Shown in pieces: positions 7,489 to 20,323 of a stretch of 64,000 bases of DNA. The notes beneath the pieces are model-generated. The model was not told the origin of the DNA. It did not search any database and was given only the letters and a program-made list of their open reading frames with translations. The number at the start of each line of letters is the position of its first letter. Position 1 is the first letter of the stretch. The translations under genes were made by a program, and so were the position numbers. The stretch is from an uncultured Lachnospiraceae bacterium (GTDB taxonomy: Bacteria; Bacillota; Clostridia; Lachnospirales; Lachnospiraceae), in contig CANRIG010000008.1 in NCBI GenBank assembly GCA_947630595.1, forward strand, positions 1 to 64,000, in the 5' to 3' direction.

Positions 7489-8418
7489 TCAGCGGGCGGG
7501 GCCGTGCCCTGCGTCCTCCTCGCCCAGTACGAGGCGGCGCAGGTCCGGCATGCCCCAGCCCTGCCGGTTCTGGGGATAGCCGAGGTCGACCGCGGCCTCC
7601 TTGAGGCGCATTTTTACTTCCACGTTGGTCATGTGCGGCTCGCGCTCCAGAAGCAGGGCCACCGCGCCGGCGACGGCCGGGGCGGCCATGGAGGTGCCGC
7701 TTTTGACGCTGTAGTACTGGCCGCGCATCCAGTGGGAGGAGCAGGAGACGATGTCGGTGCCGGGCGCGACGAGCTCCGGCTTGCAGACGCATTCGCCCGT
7801 GGGGCCGCAGCCCGAGTAATTTGCCCGCTCCTGCAGAACGCGGCCCCGGAAAAGGTCCGAGGCGCCCACGGTGATGATTTTTTTGCTGTTGCCGGGGACG
7901 GTGACGCTCATCGGCGTCGGCCCGTTGTTGCCCGCGGCCACGACCACCACCAGCCCCGCGTCCCAGGCCCATTCCACGTAGCGCACCAGCTGCTGCGCCC
8001 CGTAATCGTTTTCCTTTTTCGGCGTGCCCGCCGACAGGTTCAGAATCCGGATGCCATAGCGGCGACGGTTCTGCACCACCCAGTCGATCGCCTCCAGAAT
8101 GTCGCCCATATTGCCCTGCCCGTAGCGGTCGAGCACCTTGAGATGGATCAGTGAGCAGCCGGGCGCGATCCCGCGGTATCTGCCGCGGCTGCTCCGGCCG
8201 CTGCCCGCCAGTATGCCCGAGACATGGCTGCCGTGCGACGCGTCGTCATAGCACGGACTGTCTCTCCCGTTTACAAAATCGCGGAACTCCACAATCCGGT
8301 CTGCATAATCCGGGTGCATGCAGATGCCGGTGTCCAGCACCGCGGCGGTCACGCCTTTCCCCGTAATCCCGGCGCGGTGCACCTCGTCCGCATGCAGGTT
8401 CGCTCTCACACGATTCAC
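7489..8418 (-). CDS. S8 family serine peptidase (subtilase, AprX-like)
   Basis: Asp (AVLDTGICMHPDY), His (HGSHVSGILAG) and Ser (SGTSMAAPAVAG) motifs intact. Confidence 0.92.
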   Translation of the reverse strand: MNRVRANLHADEVHRAGITGKGVTAAVLDTGICMHPDYADRIVEFRDFVNGRDSPCYDDASHGSHVSGILAGSGRSSRGRYRGIAPGCSLIHLKVLDRYGQGNMGDILEAIDWVVQNRRRYGIRILNLSAGTPKKENDYGAQQLVRYVEWAWDAGLVVVVAAGNNGPTPMSVTVPGNSKKIITVGASDLFRGRVLQERANYSGCGPTGECVCKPELVAPGTDIVSCSSHWMRGQYYSVKSGTSMAAPAVAGAVALLLEREPHMTNVEVKMRLKEAAVDLGYPQNRQGWGMPDLRRLVLGEEDAGHGPAR

Positions 8419-13707: not shown

Positions 13708-15861
13708 TTATTTGGCTCCCGCCATTCCCTTGATGCGCACGTTCAGGGTCTTGCTCTCATGGTACGGACGGAACAGCAGGTAGCAGAACCCGATCACCAG
13801 CAGGATCGCAACCACGGTCCACACGGTGAAGCCGCCGCCTGTGAACAGGCTGCCGAACTGGTACACGCACAGGGAGACGACGTAAGCGAGCAGGCACTGA
13901 TAGCCGATGGCAAACCAGAACCATTTGATGTTGTTCATCTCCCGCTTGATGGCGCCCATCGCCGCAAAGCACGGCGCGCACAGCAGGTTGAATACCAGGA
14001 ACGAGTACGCGGCGACCGCCGTCATGCTGCCGGCCAGAGAACCCCAGATCTCCGCGCCGTCCTCCGCCACCTCTCCGAATCCGAAGAGGATGCCGAACGT
14101 ACCCACCACGTTTTCCTTGGCGATCAGGCCAGTGACCGCCGCCACAGCCATCTTCCAGTCGCCCCAGCCGAGCGGGATGAACAGCCATGCGATCGCGTTG
14201 CCGATCGTCGCCAGGATGCTGCGGTCAAGCTGCTCCGCTTCCAGCATCTGGAATTGCCCGTCGACCCAGCCGAAGCCCTGCAGGAACCAGAGCACGATGG
14301 TGGAGAGCAGAATAATTGTACCAGCTTTTTTGATAAATGACCAGCCCCTTTCCCACATGCTTCTCAGGACGTTGCCCATGGTCGGCATATGGTAAGCCGG
14401 GAGCTCCATGACGAACGGAGCCGGGTCGCCGGCGAACATTTTCGTTTTCTTTAAGATGATGCCCGAGCAGATGATAGCCGCGATGCCCACAAAGTATGCG
14501 CTCGGCGCCACCCACCAGGCTCCGCCGAACAGCGCGCCCGCGATCAGGGCAATGATCGGCAGCTTTGCGCCGCAGGGGATGAAGGTCGTCGTCATGATCG
14601 TCATCTTGCGGTCGCGGTCGTTTTCAATCGTCCTTGAAGCCATGACGCCCGGAACGCCACAGCCCGTGCCGATCAGCATCGGGATGAAGGATTTTCCGGA
14701 AAGTCCGAATTTGCGGAAAATACGGTCCATAATGAAAGCCACGCGCGCCATGTAGCCGCAGGATTCCAGAATCGCCAGGAAGAAGAACAGCACCAGCATC
14801 TGCGGCACAAAGCCGAGCACCGCGCCGACGCCGGCCACAATACCGTCGAGAATCAGCGACTGCAGCCAGCCCGCGCAGTGAATGCTGACGAGAAAGCTCT
14901 CGACCGCCGGCGGGATGATCTCCCCGAACAGCACGTCGTTGGTCCAGTCCGTCACGATGGTGCCCACCGTCGACACCGACACGTAGTAGACGACAAACAT
15001 CACCACGGCAAAGATCGGCAGCGCCAGCCAGCGGTTGGTCACGTAGCGGTCAATCCGGTCGGACGTGCTCATCGCGCCCTTCCTGCCCTTTTTCAGGCAA
15101 TCGCCGATGATCGAGGATATGTACACATAGCGCTCATTGGTGATGATGCTCTCGGTGTCGTCGTCAAACTGTTCCTCCATGGCCGCGATCTGTGCGCTCA
15201 CATCCGGCGCATTCTTCATCATCGCCCCGATTTTGTCGTCTTTCTCCAGCAGCTTGATGGCGAAGAAACGCTTCTGCTCCTGCGGAACCGAATCACCCAG
15301 CTTGCGCTCGACCTCGCTGATGATCCGCTCCGCCTCCGGCGAAAACTCATGCACCGGAGCCGCCGCCTGCGCACGTCCTGCCAGCGCCACCGCGCGGTCC
15401 GCCGCCTGCTGCACGCCGTCGCCCTTCAGGGCCGAAATCTCCACCACCTCGCAGCCCAGCTTCTGGCTCAGCTTCTTCGTGTCGATGCGGTCGCCGTTTT
15501 TCCTTACGACGTCCATCATGTTGACCGCCATCACCACCGGGATGCCCAGCTCCATCAGCTGCGTGCTCAGGTAGAGGTTGCGCTCGATGTTGGTGCCGTC
15601 CACGATATTGAGAATCGCGTCCGGCCGCTCGTTGATCAGGTAATTGCGGGCTACCACTTCCTCCAGCGTGTACGGGGAAAGCGAGTAGATGCCCGGCAGG
15701 TCCATGACCGACACGTCCCGGCTGCCTTTCAGCTTTCCTTCCTTTTTCTCGACCGTGACCCCGGGCCAGTTGCCCACGAACTGGTTGGAGCCGGTCAGCG
15801 CGTTGAACAGCGTCGTCTTGCCGCTGTTCGGATTTCCCGCAAGTGCAATTTTTACTGCCAT
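13708..15861 (-). CDS. feoB: Ferrous iron transport protein B
   Basis: MAVKIALAGNPNSGKTTLFNALTGSNQFVGNWPGVTVEKKEG G-domain; C-terminal membrane domain with IGTGCGVPGVMASRTI. Confidence 0.96.
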   Translation of the reverse strand: MAVKIALAGNPNSGKTTLFNALTGSNQFVGNWPGVTVEKKEGKLKGSRDVSVMDLPGIYSLSPYTLEEVVARNYLINERPDAILNIVDGTNIERNLYLSTQLMELGIPVVMAVNMMDVVRKNGDRIDTKKLSQKLGCEVVEISALKGDGVQQAADRAVALAGRAQAAAPVHEFSPEAERIISEVERKLGDSVPQEQKRFFAIKLLEKDDKIGAMMKNAPDVSAQIAAMEEQFDDDTESIITNERYVYISSIIGDCLKKGRKGAMSTSDRIDRYVTNRWLALPIFAVVMFVVYYVSVSTVGTIVTDWTNDVLFGEIIPPAVESFLVSIHCAGWLQSLILDGIVAGVGAVLGFVPQMLVLFFFLAILESCGYMARVAFIMDRIFRKFGLSGKSFIPMLIGTGCGVPGVMASRTIENDRDRKMTIMTTTFIPCGAKLPIIALIAGALFGGAWWVAPSAYFVGIAAIICSGIILKKTKMFAGDPAPFVMELPAYHMPTMGNVLRSMWERGWSFIKKAGTIILLSTIVLWFLQGFGWVDGQFQMLEAEQLDRSILATIGNAIAWLFIPLGWGDWKMAVAAVTGLIAKENVVGTFGILFGFGEVAEDGAEIWGSLAGSMTAVAAYSFLVFNLLCAPCFAAMGAIKREMNNIKWFWFAIGYQCLLAYVVSLCVYQFGSLFTGGGFTVWTVVAILLVIGFCYLLFRPYHESKTLNVRIKGMAGAK

Positions 15862-15960: not shown

Positions 15961-16188
15961 TCACTCCACGAAAATCATTTCCGCGTCCGCTTTGCGCAAG
16001 GACAGCTTATACCCTCTGACCGTGACCTCGACCGGATCGCCCAGCGGAGCCACCTTGCGCACAAACACATCCACGCCCTTGGTGATTCCCATGTCCATGA
16101 TCCTTCTCTTTACCGGGCCGTCGCCGGTCAGCTTTTTTACCTTTACCGTCTGCCCGCAGGCAGCATCTCTCAGTGTCATTTCGTTCAA
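15961..16188 (-). CDS. feoA: FeoA domain protein
   Basis: MNEMTLRDAACGQTVKVKKLTGDGPVKRRIMDMGITKGVDVFVRKVAPLGDPVEVTVRGYKLSLRKADAEMIFVE. Confidence 0.92.
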   Translation of the reverse strand: MNEMTLRDAACGQTVKVKKLTGDGPVKRRIMDMGITKGVDVFVRKVAPLGDPVEVTVRGYKLSLRKADAEMIFVE

Positions 16189-16224
16189 CCTCCATCTTTT
16201 TCTCCGGATATCCGGCGCCGGCAG

Positions 16225-16437
16225 TCAGACCATAATCCGGTTCGCCATATCCCTGCCGATTGCAACGCGGGAATCCTTGATGCTGACGATCAGATTGCCG
16301 CCCGCCTCGGAAACCACCGTCACCGTGCTGCCCGTGACAAATCCCAGATTTTCAAGAAACTGCCTGGTCTCGGCCCGTCCGCCGACCCGTCTGATTACGC
16401 TTGGTTCTCCTGCTTTTACCATCGTTAATGGCATCAT
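16225..16437 (-). CDS. Second FeoA domain protein
   Basis: MPLTMVKAGEPSVIRRVGGRAETRQFLENLGFVTGSTVTVVSEAGGNLIVSIKDSRVAIGRDMANRIMV; start trimmed. Confidence 0.9.
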   Translation of the reverse strand: MMPLTMVKAGEPSVIRRVGGRAETRQFLENLGFVTGSTVTVVSEAGGNLIVSIKDSRVAIGRDMANRIMV

Positions 16438-16486
16438 CCAGACCTCCTTATCCTGACTTGATTCCGGCATCCTTCCTGCCGTCAAG

Positions 16487-16502: not shown

Positions 16503-16604
16503 AAATATTAGATGTCAAGAACTTTTTTCAGGACTTCTTTTTGCTTTACCTGCAATAATTTTTATGCTATACTTACAAAAATGATGTATTGTGAGGTGTT
16601 ATTT

Positions 16605-16970
16605 ATGCATGTCAACGAGTCCGCTGAAAATTATCTCGAGACGATTCTTATTCTCAGTCAAAAGCTGCCGGTTGTCCGTTCCGTGGACATCGCCACGGAG
16701 CTCGGATACAAGAAGTCGAGCGTGAGCATCGCCATGAGAAATCTGCGCGAAAAGCACCACATCACGGTGACCGATTCCGGCTTCATCACGCTGACGGACT
16801 CCGGCCGTGCGATCGCCGAGGAAATTTACGAACGGCATCAGCTGCTCTCCTGCTGGCTTACCGCCCTGGGCGTGGACCCGCAGGTGGCCGCGGACGACGC
16901 CTGCAAGATCGAGCACGTCATCAGCCGCGAGAGCTTTGAGGCCATCAAAAGACATGTAAAGGTATCCTGA
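16605..16970 (+). CDS. DtxR-family metal-dependent transcriptional regulator
   Basis: MHVNESAENYLETILILSQKLPVVRSVDIATELGYKKSSVSIAMRNLREKHHITVTDSGFITLTDSGRAIAEEIYERHQLL...; divergent from the feo genes. Confidence 0.9.
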   Translation: MHVNESAENYLETILILSQKLPVVRSVDIATELGYKKSSVSIAMRNLREKHHITVTDSGFITLTDSGRAIAEEIYERHQLLSCWLTALGVDPQVAADDACKIEHVISRESFEAIKRHVKVS

Positions 16971-17034
16971 TTTCCGTTCATTTCCGCCGGCTTCCTTTCA
17001 TATATTGTAGGAAAATCATTCAGGAGCGCTCTGA

Positions 17035-18783
17035 ATGAAGCCATACGACGTCATCTCCAGCCAGTCTGCCGGTCCGTCCGGCAGTCCGGGCGGCCCCGGC
17101 CTGCCGCCCGCCGTCTCCGAGGACTATTCCGACATCATTTTCCGGTACCAGCTGACGCCGGAGTCCCTGCTCACAGAACTCAGCCAGTATGCCCCGCAGA
17201 TCGTTGATACCCAGTACAGCGTGCTTCACGCGCCGCTCGCCGACCGCCTCGCCGACGTTGAGGAGATCGGTTATTCCGGTGTGCCCAAGCTCTTCACCTA
17301 CGCGGACACGGTCAGCCTGGAGGACGCCGGGATTCTCTCCGCACAGCTTCAGCCCTATCTCTCCCTGTCCGGGAACGGCATTCTCATCGGTTTTCTCGAT
17401 TCCGGCATCGACTACACGCACCCGGCGTTTCGCAGCGCCGACGGCAGCACCCGCATCCTGCGCATCTGGGACCAGACTCTGCAGACGGGCCCGGCCCCGG
17501 AGGGGATGCAATACGGGACGGAATTCACCGGCGAACAGATCAACGAGGCGCTGTTCTCCGCCGACCCGCTCGCGGCGGTGCCCGTGCGCGACGAGCGCGG
17601 ACACGGGACGGCGACGGCCGGGATCGCCTGCGGGAGCGCCGACGAGACCGGCGGCTTTACCGGGGCCGCGCCCGGCAGCCGGATTCTCTTTGTCCGTCTC
17701 AAGCCGGCCAAGCGCTATCTGCGCGATTATTTCCTGATTCCGGAGGACGCCGACGCCTTTCAGGAGACCGACCTCATGCTCGGCGTCAGCTACATGGTGG
17801 ATATTTCCCGGCAGCTGCGGATGCCGCTTGTCATCTGTCTCACGCTCGGCACCAGCCAGGGCGGCCACACCGGCAGCACGCCGCTCGAGGACGTCCTCAC
17901 CTCCGCCCAGTTCAACACCGGCGTCTGCGTCGTCACCGGCACCGGCAACGAGGTCGGCCAGGGACACCATGTTCAGCGGCGCATCGCATCGCCCGGCGAA
18001 AGCGCCGACGTCGAGCTGCTGGTCGAGGAGGAAACGCGCGGCTTTGCGCTTGAATTCTGGTCCGACACGCCCGATCTCTACAGCATCGGCTTCACTTCCC
18101 CGCTGGGCGAAACCATCCAGCCGGTGCAGCCGCGCAGCCGCGTCACCTACTCTTTCGATTTCCTGCTGGAAAACAGCAAAATCGACCTCACCTACTTTAT
18201 CGTGGAAATGCTCAGCGGCTCGCAGCTGGCCTTCCTGCGCTTTGTGGACCCGACGCCCGGCCTCTGGCGCATCCGCGTCAATAATCTCACCCTCGCCGGC
18301 GGCGCCTTTCACCTGTGGCTGCCCATAACCGGGCTCGTCAGCCCCGGCGTGCGCTTTTACAGTCCCGCCGCCGACACCACCCTTGTGATCCCCTCCTGCG
18401 CCGAGGCACTGATCGCCACCGGCACCTACGACGCCTACACCGGCAGCATGTTCCGCAATTCCGGCCGCGGCTACACCCGCGACGGCCTGATCAAGCCGGA
18501 TTTCGCGGCCCCCGGCACCGATCTCACCGCGCCCGCGCCCGGCGGGCTCTACACCCGGCTGAGCGGTTCGTGCGCCGCCTCCGCGCTCGCCGCCGGAGCC
18601 GCCGCTTTGCTGGCCGAGAGCGGGCTGCGGCAGGAGCCGCCCCGCTACTACACCCCGCGCGAAATCCGCAGCCTTTTCCAGCGCGGCGCCGAGCGCCGGG
18701 ACGCCTACTCCTACCCGAACCGCGAGCAGGGCTACGGCATCCTCAACCTCTACGGGATTTTCGAGTCGTTTCTGCGGATCTGA
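17035..18783 (+). CDS. S8-family subtilase-like protein with Cys at the nucleophile position
   Basis: Asp motif GILIGFLDSGIDYTHPAF, His motif RGHGTATAGIACG; the usual SGTSxAAP block reads LSGSCAASALAAGAAALLAE. Confidence 0.88.
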   Translation: MKPYDVISSQSAGPSGSPGGPGLPPAVSEDYSDIIFRYQLTPESLLTELSQYAPQIVDTQYSVLHAPLADRLADVEEIGYSGVPKLFTYADTVSLEDAGILSAQLQPYLSLSGNGILIGFLDSGIDYTHPAFRSADGSTRILRIWDQTLQTGPAPEGMQYGTEFTGEQINEALFSADPLAAVPVRDERGHGTATAGIACGSADETGGFTGAAPGSRILFVRLKPAKRYLRDYFLIPEDADAFQETDLMLGVSYMVDISRQLRMPLVICLTLGTSQGGHTGSTPLEDVLTSAQFNTGVCVVTGTGNEVGQGHHVQRRIASPGESADVELLVEEETRGFALEFWSDTPDLYSIGFTSPLGETIQPVQPRSRVTYSFDFLLENSKIDLTYFIVEMLSGSQLAFLRFVDPTPGLWRIRVNNLTLAGGAFHLWLPITGLVSPGVRFYSPAADTTLVIPSCAEALIATGTYDAYTGSMFRNSGRGYTRDGLIKPDFAAPGTDLTAPAPGGLYTRLSGSCAASALAAGAAALLAESGLRQEPPRYYTPREIRSLFQRGAERRDAYSYPNREQGYGILNLYGIFESFLRI

Positions 18784-18918
18784 CACGCGGCCGCCCGGGC
18801 CATCCCGCAAAGCCTGTACCTCAGCCGCCTGGGCCATTTCGCAAAGCCGGCGCACAGTCACACCGCCCGCCCTCCCGCATATGATACAGTGTAAATCCTA
18901 TTTCGGAGGAATAACAAC

Positions 18919-19632: not shown

Positions 19633-20028
19633 ATGTTCACTGCCCTGGATCAGATCGCCAACCGCCGCCATCTTCAGCTCGTCAAGGCCGCCCTTCCCTA
19701 CGTTCCGCTCCCCGGCCAGAAACAGCTCTCCGTTTTCATCAAGCTGCTGGAGCTGCAGAATGTGCTGCAGTTCTATCAAAGCGGCGAGGCGGCCGTGAGC
19801 GCCTGCAGCGCCGCCGAACCGCCCGGCATGCTGGAAATGCTGAACGGCATGCGCGGCTACTGCGAGGGCGAGGAGCAGGCGCTGCTGGATCAGTGGATTT
19901 CCACGTTTTCCATGTTGGAGCTGTATGCCTCGTTCGCGCAGATGCAGCGGATGGAGGAGGAATACGCGGCGCCAGATGATTCCGGGGAAATACAGGAGCA
20001 AAGAGAGGAGGCCCCGTATGAGCAATGA
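19633..20028 (+). CDS. Hypothetical protein
   Basis: 131 aa MFTALDQIANRRHLQLVKAALPYVPLPGQKQLSVFIKLLELQNVLQFYQ; translationally coupled to the next ORF. Confidence 0.65.
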   Translation: MFTALDQIANRRHLQLVKAALPYVPLPGQKQLSVFIKLLELQNVLQFYQSGEAAVSACSAAEPPGMLEMLNGMRGYCEGEEQALLDQWISTFSMLELYASFAQMQRMEEEYAAPDDSGEIQEQREEAPYEQ

Positions 20029-20323
20029 ATCCTGGATAAACAACCCGGCCCTCGGCGGCATCGACCCGGCCAAGCTGCAGATGCTGGTCAAACTCGCCGA
20101 GCAGGCGCAGGGCAAAAAACAAAATGAGATGCTGCCGTTTCTGATGGCGGCCGCATCCCAGTCCAAAACAAACCGTATATCCTTTGATTCCGCGGAAACC
20201 GACGCTATCATCCGCGTGATGAAGATCGGCAAATCGCCCGAGGAAACCGCACGCATCGATCAGATGTGCGCGCTGTTCCGGCAGCTGCAGAATGTCAGCA
20301 GCAAGACCCGCAAACCGCAGTAG
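20018..20323 (+). CDS. Hypothetical protein
   Basis: 101 aa MSNESWINNPALGGIDPAKLQMLVKLAEQAQGKKQNEMLPFLMAAASQSKTNRISFDSAETDAIIRVMK; ATGAGCAATGA overlap with the upstream ORF. Confidence 0.7.
   Translation: MSNESWINNPALGGIDPAKLQMLVKLAEQAQGKKQNEMLPFLMAAASQSKTNRISFDSAETDAIIRVMKIGKSPEETARIDQMCALFRQLQNVSSKTRKPQ

Follow-up and report, generated by a model that had tools for sequence, protein, structure and literature searches.

The window, a stretch of 64,000 nucleotides of DNA from an uncultured Lachnospiraceae bacterium, carries on its plus strand (17035..18783) a gene coding for a Csp-type S8 subtilase of 582 amino acids with a cysteine at the nucleophile position, as assessed from the ORF, Pfam, NCBIfam, the PDB, AF2 and Foldseek. 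The reading frame is open through the 582 amino acids and AGGAG, a good ribosome-binding site, is found 8 nt 5' of the ATG. An antisense ORF of 613 amino acids (17020-18861) was set aside and taken as a shadow ORF of GC-rich DNA. The csp gene is directly preceded by a gene for a DtxR/MntR-type metal-dependent regulator (16512..16970, plus strand; PF02742/PF01325). Divergent from these, on the minus strand, are feoB (13708-15861) and two feoA genes (15964-16224 and 16225-16485), identified with Pfam and conserved in the genus. Two overlapping ORFs of about 130 amino acids without Pfam or NCBIfam match lie downstream (19633-20028 and 19925-20323, plus strand). Their homologues are found near Csp genes in other genera (17 and 15 of 33 flanked loci, respectively), and they possibly code csp-linked spore proteins.

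The csp product matches PF00082 (1.2e-27; 97.4 bits for a cut-off of 21.8) and has both the profile and the Foldseek-detected fold of S8 subtilases. Much more specific are its matches to the NCBIfam germination models CspBA (2.4e-82, on the CspA half of the fusion model, positions 629-1098) and CspC (2.7e-75) with scores below their curated cut-offs (277 of 1250 and 254 of 675 bits, respectively); the two models look narrow, made for C. difficile-type proteins. The best match among PDB sequences is C. difficile CspA (3.5e-74), with CspC and CspB then among the best solved relatives. Sequence, AF2 and Foldseek concur on the Csp domain plan of a prodomain, a subtilase domain and a jelly-roll insert. 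The prodomain spans residues 20 to 91 approximately (17092..17307) and its last strand is the conserved VPKLFT, while the jelly-roll domain (approximately residues 310-440; 17962..18354) appears in the model as a run of strands from E312 to E441, as in CspB and CspC. The protein is a Csp-type S8 subtilase of the CspA/CspC lineage, and the kinship to Csp proteins proposed in the first-pass annotation is borne out by sequence and fold.

Active site and predicted structure

The catalytic residues Asp122 (FLDSGIDY; codon 17398..17400) and His190 (GHGT; 17602..17604), whose motifs had been described as intact, are present together with the oxyanion-hole Asn305 (GTGNE; 17947..17949). The nucleophile Ser of S8 subtilases is replaced by Cys513 (codon TGC, 18571..18573), which falls exactly in the Ser221 column of subtilisin BPN' when aligned with solved Csp proteins and 240 relatives, in agreement with the original claim of a Cys at the catalytic Ser position. 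The motif SGSCAASA and its TGC codon had also been read correctly; the motif starts at 18562, one codon before the 18565 first reported. In the same alignment Ala517 (18583..18585) occupies the position of BPN' Pro225, equivalent to the subtiligase P225A substitution. The second S8 subtilase of the window, proposed as an internal control, keeps the canonical SGTSMAAP and reads KSGTSMAAPAVAG; its gene, identified by translation and Pfam, is on the minus strand (7489..8418).

No other serine aligns with the nucleophile. Ser512 was rejected for this function as it is the equivalent of the adjoining Thr220, a position where relatives have Thr, Ser or Ala. The 83 sequences with Cys in the same column, encoded by two synonymous codons, exclude that TGC is a read error, and the sole presence of TGC and TGT codons rules out a recoded stop or selenocysteine.

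Run on an alignment of 76 proteins from the window and the loci, AF2 gave a model with a pLDDT of 91 and a pTM of 0.92. In this model Asp122 closes strand 117-122, His190 opens helix 190-199, and helix 512-531 has Cys513 at its N-end; the location of His190 and Cys513 at or beside helix starts, with the Asp ending a strand, is that found in subtilisins. The prodomain is well folded in the model (pLDDT 90-95 across most of residues 20-90) and is followed by a floppy linker of low confidence (residues 92-97, pLDDT below 50), the expected site of self-cleavage. Foldseek gives CspC as the best match, along with CspA and CspB (rmsd 2.2 for C. perfringens CspB). The CspB proteins of C. perfringens and C. 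difficile (PDB access codes 4i0w and 9sj6) have the same fold, triad positions, Asp/His pair and oxyanion Asn, but their nucleophile is Ser.

Cysteine and serine at the nucleophile site

The nucleophile site was resolved in 241 relatives, which have Ser (157), Cys (83) or Gly (1). Every Cys protein of this alignment keeps the Asp and the His where it has the column. Orthologues matching at E <= 1e-100 were found in 44 of 47 genomes of the own genus, 31 with Cys and 13 with Ser. A wider survey sampled 397 genomes of the family, and two further Lachnospiraceae genera were then followed up: Cys is present in 49 of 57 proteins of the second genus (Ser in the other 8) and in 3 of 6 of the third (3 Ser). 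The clades that contain Cys have exclusively Cys or Ser as nucleophile.

Parsimony on a tree of 204 proteins yields four Ser-to-Cys gains, three Cys-to-Ser reversions, one Ser-to-Gly change and no further departure from Cys, counts that are approximate because the tree is a quick build with a support of 67 at one key node. One of the three reversions is L028 (1402-3192), a Ser-type orthologue with two in-frame TGA codons in a MAG that is 65% complete, either a pseudogene or an assembly error. In the own-genus tree, built leaving out the nucleophile column, at least three changes are forced on well-supported (starred) branches. Cys accounts for about 1/7 of the single-base outcomes of Ser codons, yet parsimony would assign to Cys four of the five departures from Ser.

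Selection on the Cys proteins

The Cys-only subtrees comprise 79 proteins and, with a length of about 11.8 changes per site, average 7.8 changes at each site. No change affects Asp122, His190 or Asn305 in them and 17.4% of sites overall are unchanged, so that zero change at three given sites would occur by chance in about 0.5% of cases. The Cys codon switched between TGC and TGT at least 13 times, the residue being kept. The whole gene is under purifying selection (dN/dS of 0.05-0.29 from close pairs), and orthologues with Cys conserve the prodomain end VPKLFT as well as those with Ser do. Judged from the alignments, this pattern does not resemble that of a dead active site. Since Cys arose about four times and was kept by evolution, it is probably a working nucleophile. 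The best explanation, which we consider to have a good likelihood, is that the 582-residue protein is a natural thiol-subtilase with Cys513 as catalytic nucleophile.

The first-pass annotation had hesitated between a thiol-subtilase and a pseudoprotease. The alternation of Ser and Cys with reversions, the intact Asp, His and Asn and the intact prodomain end speak for a thiol nucleophile and against a dead site. The protein would be a pseudoprotease if Cys were a harmless loss-of-function and its role that of a sensor or scaffold, as for CspA and CspC of C. difficile. These (PDB access codes 9pr8, 9pr9 and 6mw4) have the lineage and domain plan of the 582-residue protein and provide its best PDB match (CspA) and best fold match (CspC); the nucleophile site of CspA reads GTAAAS. 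Selection could, by analogy, act here on a non-proteolytic role, as the C. difficile members of the lineage form a pseudoprotease pair (PMC6636752). However, each of them has lost two triad residues (PMC6636752), while Asp, His and Asn are lost in none of the 79 Cys proteins, including the one studied here, which has Cys at the nucleophile site. Clades with Cys admit only Cys or Ser, with reversions, and Cys is in excess among departures from Ser. The comparison of sequences thus makes a pseudoprotease unlikely.

Alanine at position 225

The replacement of Ser by Cys in subtilisin, a classic case in enzyme engineering, is known to cripple proteolysis, and prothiolsubtilisin E can self-process. 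To our knowledge, clan SB, that of the subtilisins, is regarded as purely serine-type. A search of the available literature found neither natural Cys-nucleophile subtilases nor autoprocessing of S221C forms and, as far as found, the swap was previously known only from engineered enzymes. S221C subtilisin and the chemically made thiol-subtilisin are drastically weakened and are poor peptidases (PMC7921005); the natural Cys forms may therefore be weak enzymes too. The P225A substitution relieves crowding and restores activity of S221C subtilisin, the double mutant S221C/P225A being subtiligase (PMC7921005).

The position of Pro225 is occupied by Ala in 82 of the 83 Cys proteins and by Val in the remaining one. 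All Cys proteins but one thus carry naturally the residue pair of engineered subtiligase. In the 582-residue protein the residues at 221 and 225 are identical to those of the engineered enzymes, which derive from a Bacillus subtilisin, whereas here the pair is natural, recurrent and hosted by a distant Csp subfamily. Ala225 is also found alongside Ser (110 of 136 'others') and occurs commonly in CspA/C relatives of Ser type; every protein of the relative set that has Pro225 is a Ser protein. We infer that the Ala225 of the family permitted the Ser-to-Cys swap. A natural, recurrent and reversible exchange of Ser and Cys reveals backgrounds that tolerate the swap and predicts Ala225 to be the permissive state.

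The presence of the S221C/P225A pair (PMC7921005) raises also the idea of a natural acyl transferase resembling subtiligase, which would join peptides or attach the prodomain to an amine. This is very improbable: Ala225 is a family-wide Csp trait, shared by proteins with Ser, and was therefore not selected for ligation, and no acceptor or product is known. Natural thiol-subtilases would be ready-made scaffolds for peptide ligases.

Germination genes and predicted function

The genome of origin codes for Spo0A and for a SleC homologue (1.1e-76 to solved pre-pro-SleC), the sporulation and substrate genes of a Csp system. It has a separate all-Ser paralogue of CspB type, with the motif SGTSFAAP and CspB as best solved match. 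With a strict threshold, CspB-type proteins are present in 36 of the 47 genomes of the own genus; in the second Cys genus they occur in 55 of 58 genomes, and SleC in 54 of 58. The recurrence of the swap, the permissive Ala225 background, the CspB-type paralogue and SleC all lay beyond the view of the first-pass annotation. Past the region matching solved pre-pro-SleC, the SleC homologue (L236, 1297-2985, minus strand, own genome C52) carries a LysM domain and, C-terminally, two PG_binding_1 repeats.

In C. difficile, CspB is the sole active Csp, while CspC:CspA sense germinants (PMC12880746). Self-cleaved CspB retains its prodomain, and the activity of CspB is needed beyond this step as well (PMC3567191). 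Active Csp proteases with intact catalytic triads were described in Lachnospiraceae (PMC6636752).

In the proposed thiol-subtilase, Cys513 would take the place of Ser as nucleophile, working with His190, Asp122 and the oxyanion hole of Asn305, and the Ala at the Pro225 position would leave space for the larger sulfur, rendering the swap tolerable. The minimum task of the Cys would be cleavage of the prodomain in cis, after the VPKLFT strand, via an acyl-thioenzyme. Once processed, the protein would probably keep hold of its prodomain, like CspB, and would act on the SleC branch of spore germination together with the genome's all-Ser protease of CspB type. The simplest model thus predicts a CspA/C-type partner whose Cys cleaves its own prodomain; after self-cleavage it may have the sensing or scaffolding role suggested at first. 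A counter-point to the proposed explanation is that the csp gene of the own genus adjoins a metal regulator and not sleC or cspB.

Beyond its own prodomain, the protein could be a multi-turnover thiol protease that cuts SleC or another spore substrate in trans. This is a possible extension, though a doubtful one. The intact Asp, His and Asn with Ala225, the SleC and Spo0A genes of the genome and the need for CspB activity after self-processing (PMC3567191) are consistent with it, and the reversions to Ser suggest an equivalent function of both residues. Against it, S221C subtilisins are poor peptidases (PMC7921005) and most Cys genomes have also a canonical all-Ser CspB-type paralogue that could do the job. 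Proteolysis in trans, acyl transfer and redox gating (see below) are overlapping refinements of a thiol-subtilase; only the pseudoprotease excludes it.

On balance we lean towards a broader view, in which the CspA/C lineage of gut Lachnospiraceae exchanged Ser for Cys about four times, with three reversions at most, in an Ala225 background, and its Cys members would be working germination thiol-subtilases, natural cysteine peptidases within S8. As an intermediate, they would link the active Csp proteases of Lachnospiraceae (PMC6636752) to the pseudoprotease germinant receptors of C. difficile, making the route from protease to receptor testable.

Gene neighbourhood

Of 52 own-genus loci, 35 have the DtxR/MntR-type regulator next to csp; it does not occur in the flanks of g342 and g100. 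No operon with sleC or cspB was found, the own-genus neighbours being feoAB and the regulator. Thiol nucleophiles are intrinsically oxidisable, and in a family of obligate anaerobes a csp gene adjoining feoAB and a metal-dependent regulator could point to redox gating: the enzyme would be kept inactive by oxidation in spores exposed to air and would become active in the anoxic gut. This is improbable, considering that own-genus Ser orthologues such as L043 have the same neighbours. The metal-gene neighbourhood is, moreover, missing in the other Cys genera, and the link does not therefore explain the cysteine.

Further variants among Csp relatives

A few relatives depart from the active site described above. 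L078 (263-1960) has Gly at the nucleophile position, while L071 and L124 have Asp in place of the oxyanion Asn; the three may be true pseudoproteases or else other variants of the active site. Several own-genus orthologues (L052, L053, L054, L055 and L056) have 630-704 amino acids from stop to stop. Their matches to the 582-residue protein break near residues 300-420, which suggests inserts in or near the jelly-roll.
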